Part shown: one piece after another, positions 6,550-30,649 of the stretch | Layout of the letters: the number at the start of each line of letters is the position of its first letter | How positions within the stretch are numbered: position 1 is the stretch's first letter | Origin: Bacillota bacterium | GTDB taxonomy: Bacteria > Bacillota > Limnochordia > Darwinibacteriales > Darwinibacteriaceae | DNA length: 33,406 nucleotides | NCBI GenBank assembly: GCA_012518645.1 | Contig: JAAYRS010000179.1 | Span: 1 to 33,406 of the forward strand | Direction of reading: 5' to 3' | Notes under the pieces: model-generated | The model's database searches: none | What the model was told of the DNA's origin: nothing | Seen by the model: only the letters and a program-made list of their open reading frames with translations | Made by a program: the position numbers and the translations under genes

Positions 6550-6669
6550 GTACCTAGCGCCTTTTAGCCCGCAAAGGACTGTTTTTTGCTGCGAAAGGTA
6601 TCACAACGCCGGGAGGCGGAGCCCTGAGGCCGACACCGGATTTAAGTATTTTTTTAAGGGGAGAATGTG

Positions 6670-7644
6670 ATGAACAAGGAGCGCACTTTTTCTACACGAA
6701 GGTTTCTGGTGGGCAGGGCGGGCCCCCATCTCCGCTTAGTTTTTCGGGAAGAAGTTATGGTGCGTTTGGATCAGTTCGCCCATCTCCATGCCCACGGGGA
6801 GCACGGCGGGTTTTTAATAGGGCGAAAAAAAGAATTAAAAAGTGCTGAAAATTATGAGGTTTTTGTGGAAAGGTTTGTACCCATTCCCCAGCAGAAAGAT
6901 GCCTCCCGCCTGGTAATCAACGAAGAGCATTGGCACACTGTGCTGCGGGCCTTGGGAGAAGGGGATCAAGGGGAAGAAATCGTGGGTTGGGTTCATACTC
7001 ATCCCGGTTTTGGCGTTTTCCTTTCTAATTTTGATAAAGAGCAGCATTTACGTTTCTTTTCTCAACCTTGGCAAATTGCTTATGTAATAGATACACAGGC
7101 CCAAGAAAGGGCGGTGTATCATGTCCTGGAAGGAAAATGGCGCCGCTTGGGCGGTTACTACGTTTTGCGGCAAATGCCCGCCGAGGAAATTGGTTTACAA
7201 GCCGGCCGGCCCCGTATTTCTTGGCTTCGCCTGGGTTTTTTGACCTTACTTTTAGCATTGTTAGCCGGGGCGGGAGTCTATGGCTTCAGCTGGCTTAAAG
7301 AATTTGTACTGCCGCCGTCTCAGCCCCCCAAAGCAGAAACCTTGGTTGTGGAATCGCCCTTACCGGAAATATCCCTTTCTCGGGAAAAGGCCGGAGCGGA
7401 AGAAGAAAAAGGCCCTGAATCCCGGGAAGAGGCTGTAGCCCCCCCGGAGGCAGTTGCCTCTCCAGAGCCTAGTTATGATCAATACGTAGTTGTTGCCGGC
7501 GATAATTTATGGCGCATAGCTGATAAACTTTGGGGCGATCCCAGTCTATTCCGCTTTTTAGCGGAGGAAAACGAAATCGAAAACCCCAGCATTATTCGAG
7601 TGGGCAGGGTTTTAAAAGTACCCCCCAAACCGGAATCGGAATAG
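6670..7644 (+). CDS. JAMM/MPN+ metalloprotease-like domain - TM - LysM protein
   Basis: 324 aa with three parts. Residues about 18-170 are a JAB/MPN domain with the full zinc motif: Glu44 (GEHGGFLIG), then His109 and His111 (VHTHPGF), Ser119 and Asp122, fitting E-n-HxHP-x6-SxxD. Such domains cleave isopeptide or peptide bonds, for example in ubiquitin-like or sulfur-carrier systems. A membrane helix follows (about 186-209), then an acidic Pro/Glu linker (210-268) and a C-terminal LysM domain (about 271-318, starting YVVVAGDNLWRIADKLWG) that would bind peptidoglycan. No signal peptide precedes the MPN domain, so it is predicted cytoplasmic with LysM outside. ATG 6670 is preferred over GTG 6667 because AAGGGGAG is six bases upstream. 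The substrate is unknown and no ubiquitin-like or E1 gene is nearby. Confidence 0.85.
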   Translation: MNKERTFSTRRFLVGRAGPHLRLVFREEVMVRLDQFAHLHAHGEHGGFLIGRKKELKSAENYEVFVERFVPIPQQKDASRLVINEEHWHTVLRALGEGDQGEEIVGWVHTHPGFGVFLSNFDKEQHLRFFSQPWQIAYVIDTQAQERAVYHVLEGKWRRLGGYYVLRQMPAEEIGLQAGRPRISWLRLGFLTLLLALLAGAGVYGFSWLKEFVLPPSQPPKAETLVVESPLPEISLSREKAGAEEEKGPESREEAVAPPEAVASPEPSYDQYVVVAGDNLWRIADKLWGDPSLFRFLAEENEIENPSIIRVGRVLKVPPKPESE

Positions 7645-8255: not shown

Positions 8256-9995
8256 TTAATATTTCTTCAAATCTACTTCTTCTTTAATTTTGGCTGTAAA
8301 TTCCGCCAGACTCAAGACGCCCAAATCTCCTTCCCGGCGGTGGCGGACAGCAACTTGGCCTTTCTCTTCTTCTCTGCCCCCAACAATAAGCATATAAGGA
8401 ATCTGCTGCAGCTGGGCTTCGCGGATTTTTTTGCCCATTTTTTCTGCTCTTCGATCAATTTCCACCCGCAGATCCTGGGCTGAAAGAGAAGCAGCCACTT
8501 TTTCGGCGTAGGGCAGGTAATCATCGCCAATGGGGATCAGCTGGACTTGCACAGGTGCCAGCCAGGTGGGGAAGGCTCCCCCGTAGTGCTCGATCAGGAT
8601 GCCGATAAACCTTTCTAAAGCGCCGTAAAGTACCCGGTGGATCATGACCGGGCGCTGGCGCCGGTCATCTTGATCGATATAAATTAAATCGAAACGTTCC
8701 GGCATGGCAAAATCCAGCTGGATGGTTGCACACTGCCAAGTCCGCTCGAGGCTGTCTTCCAGGTGGAAATCGATTTTAGGCCCGTAAAAGGCGCCGTCAC
8801 CTTCGTTAAGAGCATAGTCTAAGCCCTTGGTCTCCAAGGCTAATTGCAAAGCTTCCGTTGCCTGTTCCCAAACGGCATCATCGCCGATGGCGTTTTCCGG
8901 TTTAGTGGAAAGCTCCACATGGTACTTAAATCCAAAAACTTTATAAACGTCATCGACAAAATCAATAACCTTCCCGATCTCATCCTGGATTTGAGAAGGA
9001 AGTATAAAGATATGGGCATCATCTTGGGTAAAGGCCCGGACCCGCATCAGCCCATGCAAAGTACCGGACAACTCGTGGCGGTGTACTAAGCCCATTTCTG
9101 CCAAGCGGAGGGGAAAATCCCGGTAGGAATGGAGTTTTCTTTTATAAAGGAGGAGGGCTCCGGGGCAATTCATAGGCTTGATGGCGTAGTCTTCTTCGTC
9201 AATTTGGGAGAAGTACATATTATCTCGGAAGTGATCCCAATGGCCGGAACGGTGCCAGAGATCCCGGCGAAGCAAAATGGGGGTTTTAATTTCTTGATAG
9301 CCCCGTTGACGGTGTTCTTGGCGCCAAAACTTTTCCAGCTCATTGCGGATAATCATGCCTTTAGGGTGGAAAAAGGGGAAACCGGGCCCTTCCTCTTGAA
9401 TGCTGAAAAGATCCAATTCCCGTCCTAAAAGCCGGTGATCTCTTTTGGCAGCTTCCTCCAGCCTGCGCAGATGAGCTTTCAGGTCTTTTTTGCTTAAAAA
9501 GGCAGTGCCGTAAATCCTCTGAAGCATGGGCCTTCTGGGATCGCCGCGCCAATAAGCTCCAGCAATATTTTGCAGTTTAAAATGGCGGACTTGGCCTGTG
9601 TTTTCCAAGTGGGGGCCCCGGCAGAGATCGACGAATTCGCCCTGGCGGTAGACACTGATTTTTTCTTCGCCTTCTTCCAGTTCTTCTAAAAGTTCTAATT
9701 TGTAATCCTGGTTTTGGCGGGCAAACATTTCTACTGCATCCCGGTTAGTAATTTCCTGCCTAATAATGGGCTGTTTTTCAGCAATAATTTTCTCCATTTC
9801 TGCTTCGATCAATTGCAAATCCTCCGGGGTGAAGCGGTGTTCTAAATCAAAATCGTAATAAAAACCGTTCTTAATTACTGGCCCAATGGCGATCTTAGTG
9901 TCGGGCCAAAGCCTTAAGACAGCTTGAGCCATGATGTGCGCAGTGGTGTGGCGCAAAATCTCTTCTTGATTCTTAGTTTTTAGATTGGTGCTCAA
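8256..9995 (-). CDS. thrS: Threonyl-tRNA synthetase lacking the N-terminal TGS domain
   Basis: Charges tRNA-Thr. The start chosen is TTG at 9995, eight bases after AAGGAG; longer in-frame starts would run through the T-box terminator. This gives 579 aa against about 640 for the usual enzyme: the protein begins directly with the editing domain (HTTAHIMAQAV with its HxxxH pair, later CRGPHL), so the roughly 60-residue TGS domain is absent. The catalytic core has motif 2 (RVRAFTQDDAHIF), the zinc-site region MNCPGALLLY and motif 3 (RTWQCATIQLDF); the anticodon-binding domain is at the C-terminus. Expression should be controlled by the upstream T-box. The identity is certain; the start codon is likely. 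Confidence 0.95.
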   Translation of the reverse strand: MSTNLKTKNQEEILRHTTAHIMAQAVLRLWPDTKIAIGPVIKNGFYYDFDLEHRFTPEDLQLIEAEMEKIIAEKQPIIRQEITNRDAVEMFARQNQDYKLELLEELEEGEEKISVYRQGEFVDLCRGPHLENTGQVRHFKLQNIAGAYWRGDPRRPMLQRIYGTAFLSKKDLKAHLRRLEEAAKRDHRLLGRELDLFSIQEEGPGFPFFHPKGMIIRNELEKFWRQEHRQRGYQEIKTPILLRRDLWHRSGHWDHFRDNMYFSQIDEEDYAIKPMNCPGALLLYKRKLHSYRDFPLRLAEMGLVHRHELSGTLHGLMRVRAFTQDDAHIFILPSQIQDEIGKVIDFVDDVYKVFGFKYHVELSTKPENAIGDDAVWEQATEALQLALETKGLDYALNEGDGAFYGPKIDFHLEDSLERTWQCATIQLDFAMPERFDLIYIDQDDRRQRPVMIHRVLYGALERFIGILIEHYGGAFPTWLAPVQVQLIPIGDDYLPYAEKVAASLSAQDLRVEIDRRAEKMGKKIREAQLQQIPYMLIVGGREEEKGQVAVRHRREGDLGVLSLAEFTAKIKEEVDLKKY

Positions 9996-10262
9996 TGAAA
10001 TCGCTCCTTTGCAAATAAATAAAAAAACCCTCATCCCTAATGGGACGAGGTACTCGCGGTTCCACCCAAATTGGCTGTTTTTACAGCCCTCTTTTTCCAA
10101 ACAACAGATAACGGTGTCCCGGCCCCGCTTACTCTTAGTTCGGCAGGCAGCTCCCAGGCGGTTTTCACCGAATTTGCCCCGGGGAAGCTTTCAGCCTGGG
10201 CTTCCTTTCCTGTCGGGTTGTTCTCCGGTTACTCGTCCTAATCATCGCCATTTGCAATTATT
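9996..10262 (-). promoter_or_regulatory. T-box riboswitch leader of thrS (Thr specifier)
   Basis: On the minus strand the leader has stem I elements (AGTAACC near its start, a distal loop region with GGTGAAAACC), a specifier loop with GA-ACT-A whose ACT (10137-10139) is a threonine codon, and the T-box proper GGGTGGAACCGCG (10055-10067), followed by the competing terminator. Uncharged tRNA-Thr pairing with the specifier and the T-box would allow read-through into thrS. The specifier position was read by eye and not folded. Confidence 0.93.
10021..10052 (-). terminator. T-box-controlled terminator upstream of thrS
   Basis: The minus strand reads CCTCGTCCC, a short loop, GGGATGAGGG and then seven T residues (10021-10027). 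It immediately follows the T-box sequence, whose pairing defines the alternative antiterminator. Confidence 0.92.
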
Positions 10263-26811: not shown

Positions 26812-28146
26812 TCAAAGGAAGACAGTTGTTAGTTTTGTAATAAGAAGACAGAGGGCTAAACCCAGTAAGGTAGGAAGCAGAGCAGCCAAAAATGCCCATT
26901 TTAGGCTGCCGGTCTCTTTTTTAATCGTCAGTAAAGTAGTTCCGCAAGGCCAATGGAAAATTGTAAAGACCATAAAGTTAAAAGCTGTAAGCCCGGTCCA
27001 TCCGTTTAAAAGCAGCACTTGGCGGACGGCGCCCAGGCTTTCTAATTCTAAAAGGGCCCCGGCGGCCAGATAGTTCATAAGCATGGCGGGGATTACAATT
27101 TCGTTGGCGGGCAGCCCTAAAATAAAACTGAGTAAAATTACTCCGTCCAAACCCATGGCCCGGCCTAAAGGATCCAGCCAGCGGGAAAAATGGTTAATTA
27201 AAGTTATCTTTTGAACACTGGTATTGGCCAGGATCCAGATCAAAACACCGGCCGGAGCCGCCACTTGCATGGCCCGGGCCAGCACAAATAAGGTCCGATC
27301 CAGAAAAGAACGGGCTAAAACTTGCCCCAAACGGGGAAGGCGGTAGGGGGGCAGCTCCAAAACAAAAAAGGAAGGTTTGCCCTTGAGGATTGTCGCCGCC
27401 AGCACTTTAGAAACAAGGAAGGTCGCCCCTACCCCTAAAAGGACAGCGCCTAAAACCAGCAGAGCCGGGGCCAAGCTTCCGCTGCCTCCGGGGAAAAGGG
27501 CTGCCCCGAGGAATGTCCCCATGGTGATCAAAAGGGGAAAACGGCCGTTGCAGGGTACTAGGTTATTGGTTAAAACTGCCAGAAGGCGTTCCCGGGGGGA
27601 ATCAATTATCCGGGCGGCGACTACTCCGGCCGCGTTGCAGCCAAAGCCCATGGCCATGGTTAAGGCTTGCTTGCCGTGTGCCCCCGCTTTTTGAAAGAGG
27701 CGGTCTAGGTTAAAAGCGAGGCGGGGCAAAAATCCCAGATCTTCCAGCAGGGTAAAGAGGGGGAAGAAAATGGCCATGGGCGGGAGCATAACTGCCGCCA
27801 CCCAGGCCAGACCCCGATAAAGGCCGGACACTAAAACCCCCAGCAGCCAAGGGGGGCTGCCCAATTTAGTAAACGCCTGCACCAAAAGGCCCTCGATCCA
27901 AAAAAAGAGGCGGGCCAGCAGATCGGAGGGGTAGTTGGCGCCAAAGATGGTAATCCAAAAAAGAAAGGCTAACAAAGCTAAAATCAGGGGCAGGGCCAAG
28001 AGGCGGGAAGTGATGATCCGATCCGCTGCTGCTGTGAAGCCTGTTTGAGGATCAGGCGGGTTGCCAACAACCCTGTCTGCAATTTCTTCCGCCCTGGCAT
28101 AAATCGAGCAGACTAGGGCATCTTGGGTGTGGGCTTCGTTTTTCAT
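26812..28146 (-). CDS. feoB: FeoB membrane (transport) domain as a separate protein
   Basis: 444 aa with about eight hydrophobic helices and two nucleoside-recognition (Gate) domains. The conserved FeoB cysteine motifs are present: AMGFGCNAAGVVAARII and NLVPCNGRFPLLITMG, the second Gate region being SFILGLPANEIVIPAML. It moves Fe(II) across the membrane when driven by the G protein. The start ATG 28146 overlaps the stop of the G-domain gene (ATGA), so translation is coupled. A longer in-frame reading back to 28233 exists but lies inside the upstream gene. The small GTPase domain normally fused at the N-terminus is encoded by that gene. Confidence 0.9.
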   Translation of the reverse strand: MKNEAHTQDALVCSIYARAEEIADRVVGNPPDPQTGFTAAADRIITSRLLALPLILALLAFLFWITIFGANYPSDLLARLFFWIEGLLVQAFTKLGSPPWLLGVLVSGLYRGLAWVAAVMLPPMAIFFPLFTLLEDLGFLPRLAFNLDRLFQKAGAHGKQALTMAMGFGCNAAGVVAARIIDSPRERLLAVLTNNLVPCNGRFPLLITMGTFLGAALFPGGSGSLAPALLVLGAVLLGVGATFLVSKVLAATILKGKPSFFVLELPPYRLPRLGQVLARSFLDRTLFVLARAMQVAAPAGVLIWILANTSVQKITLINHFSRWLDPLGRAMGLDGVILLSFILGLPANEIVIPAMLMNYLAAGALLELESLGAVRQVLLLNGWTGLTAFNFMVFTIFHWPCGTTLLTIKKETGSLKWAFLAALLPTLLGLALCLLITKLTTVFL

Positions 28147-28712
28147 GGCAGTGCTTTCACCCCCTTCTCCGGAAAGGGATCCAAAGGAAGGGGCTTGGGC
28201 CGGGGTTTTAAAATCCCGGCCGCCACCCGCCAAACAGCGTCTTTAAGCAGGGGCAGCCCTTGGCCCGTAGTGGCAGTGGTTGGGATTACGGGCAGCCCTA
28301 ATTCCTGTTCCAACAGCTCGCAGTCCAGGCGTAAATTAAGGCGCCGGGCCTGATCCATCAAGTTTAAGCAGACGACAATGTGAGAAGTGATGGCTGTAAC
28401 CTGGAGGACTAAATTAAGATTTCGTTCTAAACGGGTGGCATCGACTACCAGGACCAAGGCCGCCGGTTGGCTGAGGCAAATAAAGTCCCGGGCGATCTCT
28501 TCTTCCGGGGAACTGGCTAAGAGGGAGTAAGTCCCGGGCAGATCTACTAGTTCAAAAGTGCGCCCCAGGTAGCGAAAACGGCCCCGGGCCAGCAGAACCG
28601 TTTTTCCCGGCCAGTTGCCGGTATGTTGTTTTAAGCCGGTTAGGGCGTTGAATATGGTGCTTTTTCCTGTGTTTGGATTCCCGGCCAGTCCTATTAAATA
28701 AGTGGAAGCCAT
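28143..28712 (-). CDS. feoB: FeoB GTPase domain as a separate protein
   Basis: 189 aa. G1 GNPNTGKST (11-19), G2 region GNWPGKTV, G3 DLPGTYSL, G4 NLMD, and a G5-like TTATTGQG. This is the FeoB N-domain including most of the G fold; the GDI helical segment after it seems shortened and is shared with the start of the next gene. It would regulate Fe(II) transport by the membrane protein. Starts four bases after feoA; the first ATG follows a GGGGGTGAAGCC site. It could be mistaken for a general Era-like GTPase but its position and motif GNPNTGKSTIFNALTG are FeoB. Confidence 0.92.
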   Translation of the reverse strand: MASTYLIGLAGNPNTGKSTIFNALTGLKQHTGNWPGKTVLLARGRFRYLGRTFELVDLPGTYSLLASSPEEEIARDFICLSQPAALVLVVDATRLERNLNLVLQVTAITSHIVVCLNLMDQARRLNLRLDCELLEQELGLPVIPTTATTGQGLPLLKDAVWRVAAGILKPRPKPLPLDPFPEKGVKALP

Positions 28713-28716
28713 GGCT

Positions 28717-28950
28717 TCACCCCCTTGTTTCTGGTCTAAGCAGCACCTGCCGGGCTTGAGCGCGGCGAAAGGCGATTATAGTCCCCCGCAGGGCGTAGGC
28801 CCTGGGATCACCTCCGGGAGCAGCTAAAACGGCTGTGATCTCTGTGCCCGGTGTTAATCCCAAATCCAGCATCCTCCGGCGCACCGTCCCCGCGGTTTTA
28901 ACTTCTGCTACTTTTGCTTTTGTCCCCAATTTTAAATCGGCTAAAGTCAA
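28717..28950 (-). CDS. feoA: FeoA family protein
   Basis: 77 aa SH3-like protein that works with FeoB in ferrous iron uptake. It shows MTLADLKLGTKAKV and the typical RRRMLDLGLTPGTEI ... DPRAYALRGTIIAFRRAQA pattern. ATG with GAGGTGTT upstream. First gene of feoA-feoB(G)-feoB(membrane). No Fur box was recognised in the 135 bases upstream. Confidence 0.95.
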   Translation of the reverse strand: MTLADLKLGTKAKVAEVKTAGTVRRRMLDLGLTPGTEITAVLAAPGGDPRAYALRGTIIAFRRAQARQVLLRPETRG

Positions 28951-29085: not shown

Positions 29086-29697
29086 ATGGATTTGGAACAA
29101 ATTAAGGAACTGGCTCAAAGTACCATGGGCCGGCGCCAATCACACCCTTACCGCCAACCCGGCTATATCTTTTATCACGGGCAGCGGGTGGGTAATTTGG
29201 CTTTGACCCTGCGGGAGTTGGTTTTTCCGGGTCAAATTGAAGATGATGATGTGATCTTAGTAGGAAGCTGGTTCCACGATGTGGCCAAGGGCCTGGAGCC
29301 CCATTGGGAGTACGGTGCCCTTTTGGCAGGCAAGCTCCTGGAAGGGCGCTGTTCCCAAAACCAGCTGGACCAGATTCAAGAAATTATAAAGGGGCACACC
29401 CTTCGCAAAGAAAAATTCTATCCCCATTACGTGCAGCTGGTCCAGGATGCGGATCTTTTGGATCATATGGGCACCCAGGAAATTTGGCTCAGCTTTTTAC
29501 ACGCAGCGGGAAGCGGAAGGGACGCGGGCAGTGTTTTAGATTTTTATAAAAAAGAGTATAAGGAGAAGATTGCCCGAGATCGCCTGCTTTTGAACTATTC
29601 TCAATCAGTGGAGATTTTCGAAGAGAAGAACCGTTTTGTAGAGGATTTTGCGGCCCGTTTGGCAAGGGAAAACCAAGGTTATATTGTTAGAAGATAG
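29086..29697 (+). CDS. HD-domain phosphohydrolase
   Basis: 203 aa. HD-superfamily metal ligands are visible: His31 (FYHGQRVGNLA), His64-Asp65 (WFHDVAKG), a His in the KGHTLR motif and the Asp in VQDADLLDHMG. Members hydrolyse phosphomonoesters or nucleotides; the substrate here is unknown. ATG is preceded by AAAAAGGTGG. It is divergent from feoA with 135 bases between and ends in a strong terminator. Soluble, no other domain. Confidence 0.88.
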   Translation: MDLEQIKELAQSTMGRRQSHPYRQPGYIFYHGQRVGNLALTLRELVFPGQIEDDDVILVGSWFHDVAKGLEPHWEYGALLAGKLLEGRCSQNQLDQIQEIIKGHTLRKEKFYPHYVQLVQDADLLDHMGTQEIWLSFLHAAGSGRDAGSVLDFYKKEYKEKIARDRLLLNYSQSVEIFEEKNRFVEDFAARLARENQGYIVRR

Positions 29698-29730
29698 AAA
29701 GGGCTGAGAGGCGGAGCCCCTCAGCCCTTT
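29698..29730. terminator. Bidirectional terminator between HD gene and veg
   Basis: AAAGGGCTGAG (29698-29708) pairs perfectly with CTCAGCCCTTT (29720-29730). It sits directly after the HD gene and 17 bases beyond the end of the veg operon, with T-rich flanks on both strands. Confidence 0.88.
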
Positions 29731-29747
29731 CGGTGGGAGGAAAATAT

Positions 29748-30011
29748 CTAATTAAAACCCACCCGCTCGTTGTCAATGGTTACTTCCACGTTTTCTGTAA
29801 GTACATCGGCATAAGTGTAGGAACGGCGGCGAACTGCATTGGATTGATCTAAATTGACAACAAATAGTTTAGGATAAGTTTCCAGGAGGATACCTTCAGA
29901 TTCTAGGAAGCGGCGACGGCCTTTGCTGGCTCGAATAAAGACCTTCTTGCCTACATTCGCTTCCAGGCGGTGTTTGATATCCTCAATGGTTGGGATTTTT
30001 TCTATGGCCAT
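29748..30011 (-). CDS. veg: Veg family protein
   Basis: 87 aa. Matches the Veg family: DIKHRLEANVGKKVFIRASKGRRR, then GILLETYPKLFVVNLDQ and SYTYADVLTENVEV, the same layout as B. subtilis Veg, which stimulates biofilm formation by acting against the SinR repressor. It has its own GGAGGG site but lies only 24 bases after the unknown gene and no terminator separates them, so it should be transcribed from the c-di-AMP riboswitch promoter. If so, Veg level here would fall as c-di-AMP rises. Confidence 0.93.
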   Translation of the reverse strand: MAIEKIPTIEDIKHRLEANVGKKVFIRASKGRRRFLESEGILLETYPKLFVVNLDQSNAVRRRSYTYADVLTENVEVTIDNERVGFN

Positions 30012-30035
30012 GCTTTTTTGCCCTCCTGTCGTGTT

Positions 30036-30347
30036 TTAATTGAAATTTTGCCTCAGGTAACAGACATCGTAGACTGTTTCTAAGCCTGGGTAGATCATAA
30101 TGCTATGATTGCGAACATTTCCTGGTTTGGGATCAGGCAGTTTTAAACCTACCAGAAAATAATTGCCGGGTTTAAGCCCTTGAACAGTGTGGGTTTTCTG
30201 TTCCCCGTATTCCAATTCCCCTTCGAAGGAGCGGAGAACTTTGGTGGGGTCGCAGACCCGGTAGAGAATAAAGTGGTATCTTCCGTCATGAGGCCGAGAG
30301 TTGCGATAAGTGTTATAAAAAGTTACTTTCAGTGTTCCTGTAGGCAT
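30036..30347 (-). CDS. Unrecognised 103-aa beta-rich protein behind a c-di-AMP riboswitch
   Basis: No family recognised. The sequence is strand-rich (TLKVTFYNTY, RYHFILYRVC, NHSIMIYPGLETVYDVCYL) with LKPGNYFLVGLKLP, a pattern seen in transthyretin-like or Cna-B-like beta-sandwiches. No signal peptide and two Cys. ATG has GAGGTG five bases upstream, inside an upstream ORF. It is the first full gene after the ydaO-type riboswitch, with veg 24 bases downstream; this implies a role in processes linked to c-di-AMP (osmotic or cell-wall state), but the function is unknown. Confidence 0.75.
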   Translation of the reverse strand: MPTGTLKVTFYNTYRNSRPHDGRYHFILYRVCDPTKVLRSFEGELEYGEQKTHTVQGLKPGNYFLVGLKLPDPKPGNVRNHSIMIYPGLETVYDVCYLRQNFN

Positions 30348-30385
30348 AAATTCACCTCATTTTTGTTAAAGTGGCAGCTTAGCAT
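30329..30385 (-). CDS. Short upstream ORF (18 codons) overlapping the 103-aa gene
   Basis: ATG at 30385 has an excellent AAGGAG site and reads MLSCHFNKNEVNLCLQEH then TGA at 30331-30329, overlapping the start of the main gene (30347) by 19 bases in another frame. It could couple or tune translation of the downstream gene. Whether it is translated is unknown. Confidence 0.4.
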   Translation of the reverse strand: MLSCHFNKNEVNLCLQEH

Positions 30386-30419
30386 AATGATCATCTCCTT
30401 ATTAAAATTTGTGCCTTTA

Positions 30420-30463
30420 AAATACAAAAAGCGTATGCACGACTTTCGATGTCGTCACACGCT
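30420..30463 (-). terminator. Expression-platform terminator of the c-di-AMP riboswitch
   Basis: AGCGTGTGACGAC and GTCGTGCATACGCT form the stem (30462-30451 with 30443-30430), followed by TTTTTG-TATTTT. It lies between aptamer and coding region. Confidence 0.87.
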
Positions 30464-30464
30464 T

Positions 30465-30585
30465 GGCGTACTCCTACGAGGTTAGCTGCCGGGTTCGGGC
30501 ACCCAAGTTGCCCTTCCTGCTTGATTTCAGGATTCACCCCTAAATATTGGTTCCCCCGTTGTCACAAAATAATGATATTCGGAGA
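30465..30585 (-). promoter_or_regulatory. ydaO/yuaA-type c-di-AMP riboswitch aptamer
   Basis: On the minus strand the conserved core of this class is present: GGGGGAACC, GGGGTGAATCC, GGGTGCCCGAACCCG and CAGCTAACCTCGTAGGAG. The CTCC near the 5' end pairs with the final GGAG to close the aptamer. Binding of c-di-AMP in this class usually turns expression off through a terminator, which is present just downstream. Confidence 0.95.
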
Positions 30586-30620
30586 TCTTGGTGCTCCTCA
30601 ACTGGAGCTGTACAACATGC

Positions 30621-30649
30621 AGTATAACATGATAATTATGGTCCGTCAA
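30621..30649 (-). promoter_or_regulatory. Sigma-A promoter of the riboswitch transcript
   Basis: TTGACG (30644-30649) and TATACT (30621-30626) separated by exactly 17 bases on the minus strand; the transcript would begin near 30614, before the aptamer. Confidence 0.85.

Follow-up and report, generated by a model that had tools for sequence, protein, structure and literature searches.

Introduction

The c-di-AMP riboswitches of the ydaO/yuaA class (RF00379) have been described as controlling transport, osmotic, and cell wall genes. In the Gram-positive bacteria studied, low c-di-AMP accompanies low K+. Veg is a conserved protein that is common among the Bacillota. The ydaO riboswitch of Bacillus subtilis is an OFF switch (PMC5575661). 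Veg is associated with mRNA in C. difficile; in B. subtilis, a cspB cspD double mutant is reported to be rescued when veg is lost, which makes Veg a genetic antagonist of the cold-shock proteins, and expression of biofilm genes is impaired in a veg mutant (PMC8307031). The RNA-binding protein KhpB of Lactococcus provides a precedent in c-di-AMP-linked osmoresistance (PMC12542702).

Here, we report a locus at which a c-di-AMP riboswitch leads to a gene of the Veg family. It lies in a contig of 33,406 nt (JAAYRS010000179.1, assembly GCA_012518645.1) from a member of the Limnochordia, and this whole stretch of DNA is referred to below as the window. A preliminary description had placed an orphan gene and a veg gene within one c-di-AMP riboswitch unit, and the parts and their order support that proposal. 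The locus shares with the known ydaO/yuaA systems a full-length aptamer, a promoter, an intrinsic terminator as the expression platform, and a loop-tail complementarity resembling the known pseudoknot. However, the known systems control transport or wall-hydrolase genes, whereas the window riboswitch precedes genes for an unnamed small protein (two such proteins in relatives) and for a paralogue of Veg.

Results

The leader is an ordinary member of the ydaO class

The ydaO aptamer with its promoter and terminator, as proposed in the preliminary description, was recovered in each of its parts (Table 1). The covariance model matched over its full length (positions 1 to 134) and above its gathering score of 38, and the aptamer is typical of RF00379. 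Eight promoter candidates were observed in the region compared with 2.0 expected from shuffled sequences, and most relatives carry a TTGAC...TATACT-type promoter at the same position. The complementary segments CUUGG and CCAAG occupy the position of CUCCUUCG and CGAAGGAG in the solved ydaO RNA (sequence quoted in PMC5393176) and probably form the aptamer pseudoknot. The tail of this pairing shares AAG with the 5' arm of the terminator. The leader terminator (30464-30419) escaped a simple terminator scan, and its bulge is the presumed reason. In nearly all of the relatives read, a hairpin and a run of U lie right 3' of the aptamer. The leader RNA is predicted to bind c-di-AMP. The ligand is likely made by the organism, since its genome encodes two diadenylate cyclase-domain proteins.

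Table 1. Positions in the window of the features of the riboswitch-veg2 unit
Feature	Coordinates	Strand	Basis or score
Promoter, sigma-70, TTGACG-17 nt-TATACT, extended -10	30621..30649	-	Top of 8 regional candidates
c-di-AMP riboswitch aptamer (RF00379, ydaO class)	30455..30594	-	94.2 bits, E 3e-21
P1 helix, CUCC 30584-30581 / GGAG 30474-30471	30471..30584	-	Rfam alignment; sequence checked
Probable pseudoknot, loop CUUGG 30507-30503 / tail CCAAG 30466-30462	30462..30507	-	Suggested by complementarity
Intrinsic terminator, expression platform	30419..30464	-	Hairpin 30464-30429, U tract 30430-30419, -18.9 kcal/mol
18-codon ORF MLSCHFNKNEVNLCLQEH, SD AAGGAG; probable deletion relic of the zinc-ribbon gene found in relatives	30329..30385	-	Flanking similarity
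103-aa orphan protein	30036..30347	-	ORF; predicted seven-stranded beta sandwich
Gap of 24 nt with Shine-Dalgarno AGGAGG	30012..30035	-	Sequence inspection
veg2, Veg paralogue, 87 aa	29748..30011	-	PF06257, 91.1 bits (cut-off 25)
Strong intrinsic terminator after veg2, ending the unit	29697..29731	-	Terminator scan

The unit carries a second copy of veg

The minus strand from 30649 to 29697 reads as a single transcription unit. As had been proposed, no terminator separates the 103-aa gene from veg: the gap between them holds a ribosome-binding site alone, with no promoter either, and the promoter scan found no promoter-like site on this strand within the 103-aa gene. The riboswitch, the 103-aa gene, and veg are predicted to be cotranscribed.

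Assignment of the last gene to veg stood as far as the family is concerned (PF06257), but the gene proved to be a second, paralogous copy, with the ordinary veg located elsewhere and free of a riboswitch. A search with the window Veg found two Veg genes in this genome. The ordinary protein, Veg1 (G000:C77:5119-5364), is 56% identical to the window protein, Veg2; identities between Veg2 and Veg1 are about 50 to 56%. The Veg1 gene is flanked by ksgA-like and ispE-like genes, with a LysM-like gene adjacent (names assigned by eye), and the ksgA-ispE interval is, we presume, where veg resides in B. subtilis. Window veg2 lies outside this context, the place being held by the copy on C77, and no RF00379 riboswitch was found at the Veg1 locus.

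Veg2 belongs to the same family as B. subtilis Veg by its profile match (91 bits) and is related to the solved Veg structure (PDB 3FB9) by phmmer (E 1.2e-6). It differs from Veg of the B. subtilis type in being a second copy linked to a riboswitch and in scoring 95.8 bits with NF046033, short of the equivalog cut-off of 135. Judged by sequence and gene context, the window Veg is a paralogue and does not correspond to B. subtilis veg. It had been suggested that the locus connects c-di-AMP directly to the biofilm stimulator Veg. With a paralogue as the target this does not follow, and biofilm stimulation is not transferable to Veg2 because it is a paralogue found in uncultured bacteria. Of the molecular links published for Veg, the one to RNA has the better support (PMC8307031).

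Second copies of veg lie behind the riboswitch throughout the class

PF06257 and RF00379 were searched in 73 genomes of the class, and the coordinates were intersected. The aptamer census comprises the matches listed, about 150 (one added from a separate search), to which a few weak aptamers may have to be added. Veg was present in 67 of the 73 genomes, as one copy in 47 and as two copies in 20. A lack of conservation in relatives had been set beforehand as grounds for refuting the proposed arrangement, and the arrangement withstood this check clearly. In all 20 two-copy genomes, a same-strand aptamer lay 114 to 633 nt upstream of the second Veg, and the sole single-copy genome with a riboswitch-linked Veg was G023, whose Veg groups with Veg2. 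None of the remaining 66 Veg genes had an aptamer within 2 kb among the matches listed. Linkage was seen in two families. Where Veg1 shared a contig with an aptamer, the two were at least 80 kb apart among the matches listed, except in G105, where they were separated by 4.8 kb and the aptamer was on the downstream side.

A second scan covered named contigs, many of which are census genomes under public names. Aptamers were found at 18 of 18 Veg2-type loci (L033 to L050) and at 0 of 20 Veg1-type loci. These contigs represent uncultured Bacillota, nearly all metagenome assembled (e.g., Natronincola sp., Candidatus Fermentithermobacillaceae, and Limnochordia bacterium). Among 398 genomes of the phylum, Veg was found in 280, usually as a single copy. 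Outside the order, two Veg matches occurred only in G246, G256, and G421, and RF00379 was not found in those of their Veg loci that were examined. Because the riboswitch-veg arrangement recurs in relatives, it is not a product of chance.

Recurrence of this kind could still arise if the riboswitch served only the 103-aa and zinc-ribbon genes, with veg2 as a passenger transcribed mostly from elsewhere. Such a division of labor is consistent with genome G015, where no veg follows the 103-aa homologue that the riboswitch leads. However, 13 of the 21 genomes with a linked veg2 lacked both the 103-aa gene and any visible relic of it, and in 12 of these, all of family f1, the aptamer and terminator stood directly before veg2, with 114 to 139 nt to the Veg domain. 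The lack of a promoter-like site inside the 103-aa gene also speaks against a passenger, as does the fact that Veg2 is the most conserved member of the unit. We consider a passenger role for veg2 quite unlikely. Given the 13 genomes without the 103-aa gene or its relic, veg itself would be the target.

In the L033-L034 pair, dN/dS was 0.010/0.90 (about 0.01) in veg2, 0.054/1.25 (about 0.04) in the 103-aa gene, and 0.070/0.59 in the zinc-ribbon gene, which places all three under purifying selection; many other pairs were saturated at synonymous sites.

Riboswitch-linked Vegs group together

A tree of 54 rows placed the 22 riboswitch-linked Vegs on one side of a branch with bootstrap support of 96/83. 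The corresponding values were 93/83 in a set of 48 rows and 93/77 upon removal of the long-branched f3 forms; when the main Veg2 group was removed, the rest of the tree had no resolution. The gene order in G033 (f3), aptamer, 103-aa homologue, and veg, gives extra support to the placement of the f3 Vegs with Veg2. From the tree grouping, we favor one origin for the riboswitch-linked Vegs. The veg2 gene would then be a duplicate of veg that was retained behind the riboswitch in this lineage, the ordinary veg having stayed riboswitch-free.

Because the tree fits a single origin, the 20 cases of linkage are not independent. The same fit would be expected if the proximity were mere lineage inertia, an ancestral arrangement kept by chance and devoid of regulatory meaning. 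Several observations argue against this. The flanking genes differ between f1 and f3. The 103-aa and zinc-ribbon genes were lost in several lines, but the aptamer, terminator, and veg2 remained together. Furthermore, the aptamer core and terminator were kept even though the linked Vegs are less than 50% identical (46% for L032). Inertia is thus a very improbable account of the linkage, and we retain the reading in which the riboswitch controls veg2.

Small proteins encoded between the riboswitch and veg2

The 103-aa product, previously noted as unrecognized, indeed had no match in Pfam or NCBIfam. No viral relatives and no sequence match in the PDB were found. The protein shows no apparent signal peptide or sorting motif and is probably located in the cytoplasm. 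AlphaFold2, run from five sequences, predicted seven strands (pLDDT 82, with the five models ranging from 58 to 82; pTM 0.75). In Foldseek, the model matched best a CnaB2 domain from L. plantarum (E 1e-4, TM 0.50-0.57), along with the GBS52 pilin. The predicted fold may resemble CnaB/SpaA-like pilin domains (8BDW, 3PHS; E 1e-4, TM about 0.5-0.58), from which the 103-aa protein differs in being free-standing, apparently cytoplasmic, and without a Pfam match. A CnaB/transthyretin-type sandwich is plausible for this protein but not secure.

Relatives of the 103-aa protein were found in seven genomes, the window genome included, from three families: G000, G001, G006, G007, and G009 (f1), G033 (f3), and G015 (f4). 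All seven genes lie behind an RF00379 aptamer, starting 107 to 256 nt downstream of it, and in six of the seven genomes veg follows after 14 to 28 nt. The exception is G015, where the homologue is followed by a terminator-like hairpin. As the preliminary description anticipated, the 103-aa protein gains a physiological context, because its homologues occur only behind a c-di-AMP riboswitch. The 103-aa gene is absent from G014 and G032, in which the stretch preceding veg resembles, by eye, the C-terminus of the protein (SDINCSRCLGKHTFRM in G032) and seems to be its relic. One candidate relative from outside the class, in G293 (E 1.6e-4), was rejected as an unrelated-looking protein without a riboswitch.

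Four f1 relatives encode a further protein of 55 to 59 aa with a CxxC...CxxC pattern between the aptamer and the 103-aa gene. It is similar to Spt4 and zinc-ribbon proteins, but the matches are below threshold and no family reached its cut-off. In the window, there seems to be a relic alone: the 18-codon ORF retains the ribosome-binding site and start of the zinc-ribbon gene and runs into the start of the 103-aa gene, and it is probably what a deletion left of that gene.

Genomic setting and other c-di-AMP riboswitches

In several f1 relatives, the K+ uptake genes trkA and trkH are divergent from the riboswitch; their place in the window is taken by a 115-aa ORF and a two-component system. The window genome contains two further RF00379 sites. 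One (L123) precedes an Mrp-type Na+/H+ antiporter operon, and the other (L124) precedes a small orphan gene (G000:C190:25060-25227). Orphans of the latter type are about 55 aa long, carry the motif QVEKYLALESHPRQK, and have no Pfam match; all 16 class-wide matches (the window genome and 15 others) were located about 71 to 149 nt downstream of RF00379. At L125, L128, L130, L131, and L132, RF00379 precedes a CPA2-type Na+/H+ exchanger, and a PII-like gene follows the exchanger in several relatives, where the loci were read that far.

Elsewhere in the window, a T-box leader (10038-10254, minus strand, 120.9 bits) precedes a threonyl-tRNA synthetase-like gene (8256-10100). After feoA, feoB is apparently split (26812-28950, minus strand) into overlapping genes for a 189-aa G-domain and a 473-aa transport-domain protein, a split also found in the relatives L033 and L034. 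The gene at 6667-7644 (plus strand) encodes a 325-aa protein in which a JAMM/MPN-type-looking domain (HTHPGF...D) and a LysM-like repeat at the C-terminus were recognized by eye, together with a membrane segment. In G032, a group II intron match (L113 1889-1970, minus strand; 42.1 bits, cut-off 40) lies just downstream of the riboswitch-linked veg.

Discussion

We propose that the locus is a c-di-AMP-controlled operon composed of a promoter, a ydaO-class aptamer, a terminator, the zinc-ribbon relic, the CnaB-like 103-aa gene, and veg2. At high c-di-AMP, which would signal high K+ or osmotic conditions, the aptamer would fold and the terminator would halt transcription. At low c-di-AMP, and hence low K+, the polymerase would read through and the 103-aa gene and veg2 would be expressed. 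Veg2 would act as a small RNA-associated factor whose dose matches RNA metabolism to cellular ionic conditions. We assign a probability of about 70% to this explanation as a whole, that is, a c-di-AMP operon with an OFF switch and an RNA-associated Veg2.

The direction of the switch was taken from the ydaO precedent, because folding gave no clean two-state choice: in ViennaRNA predictions for 14 leaders, free and with P1 forced, no conserved exclusive antiterminator was found. A candidate antiterminator in the 5' leader, CACA-CGUUUUGG paired with CCAAGCGUGUG, was noted by eye in a subset of leaders and was rejected, as it is absent from the window. The same operon could instead be governed by an ON switch, with c-di-AMP promoting read-through and Veg2 produced at high c-di-AMP and high K+. 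In favor of ON, the tail CCAAG of the probable pseudoknot reaches into the terminator base, and cation antiporters of the CPA2 and Mrp types, which would make sense as ON targets, lie behind the sister riboswitches. However, the overlap is limited to three nucleotides and the residual stem is still a good terminator, whereas the ydaO riboswitch that has been studied is OFF (PMC5575661). By analogy, OFF is likely to be the correct direction, and the ON version has a modest chance of being right.

For Veg2, an RNA-related role is our leading guess and follows from the mRNA association of Veg and its antagonism to the cold-shock proteins (PMC8307031). Those properties were established for the ordinary Veg of other species, from which the riboswitch-linked Veg2 may differ.

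No earlier association of veg with ydaO was found in the literature covered; the ydaO surveys 10.1128/JB.00450-10 and 10.1038/nchembio.1363 are outside that coverage and could list one. As far as the literature covered shows, an operon that ties a dedicated Veg paralogue to a c-di-AMP switch, together with one or two small proteins in part of the lineage, is new. It is possible, though we hold it doubtful in this full form, that a Bacillota lineage duplicated an RNA-associated Veg and that a c-di-AMP riboswitch came to control the copy directly, along with a zinc-ribbon protein and a cytoplasmic protein of CnaB fold.

If true, the riboswitch-controlled Veg copy would be a posttranscriptional arm of K+ and osmotic signaling. 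The retention of the linkage in every related genome examined that carries the second copy makes Veg-type proteins a plausible new output of such signaling. Two unnamed small proteins gain a physiological setting through the c-di-AMP riboswitch. A dedicated Veg copy under a known second messenger would also offer a handle on the function of Veg, which could be tested by tracing the changes that arise as Veg2 responds to c-di-AMP.
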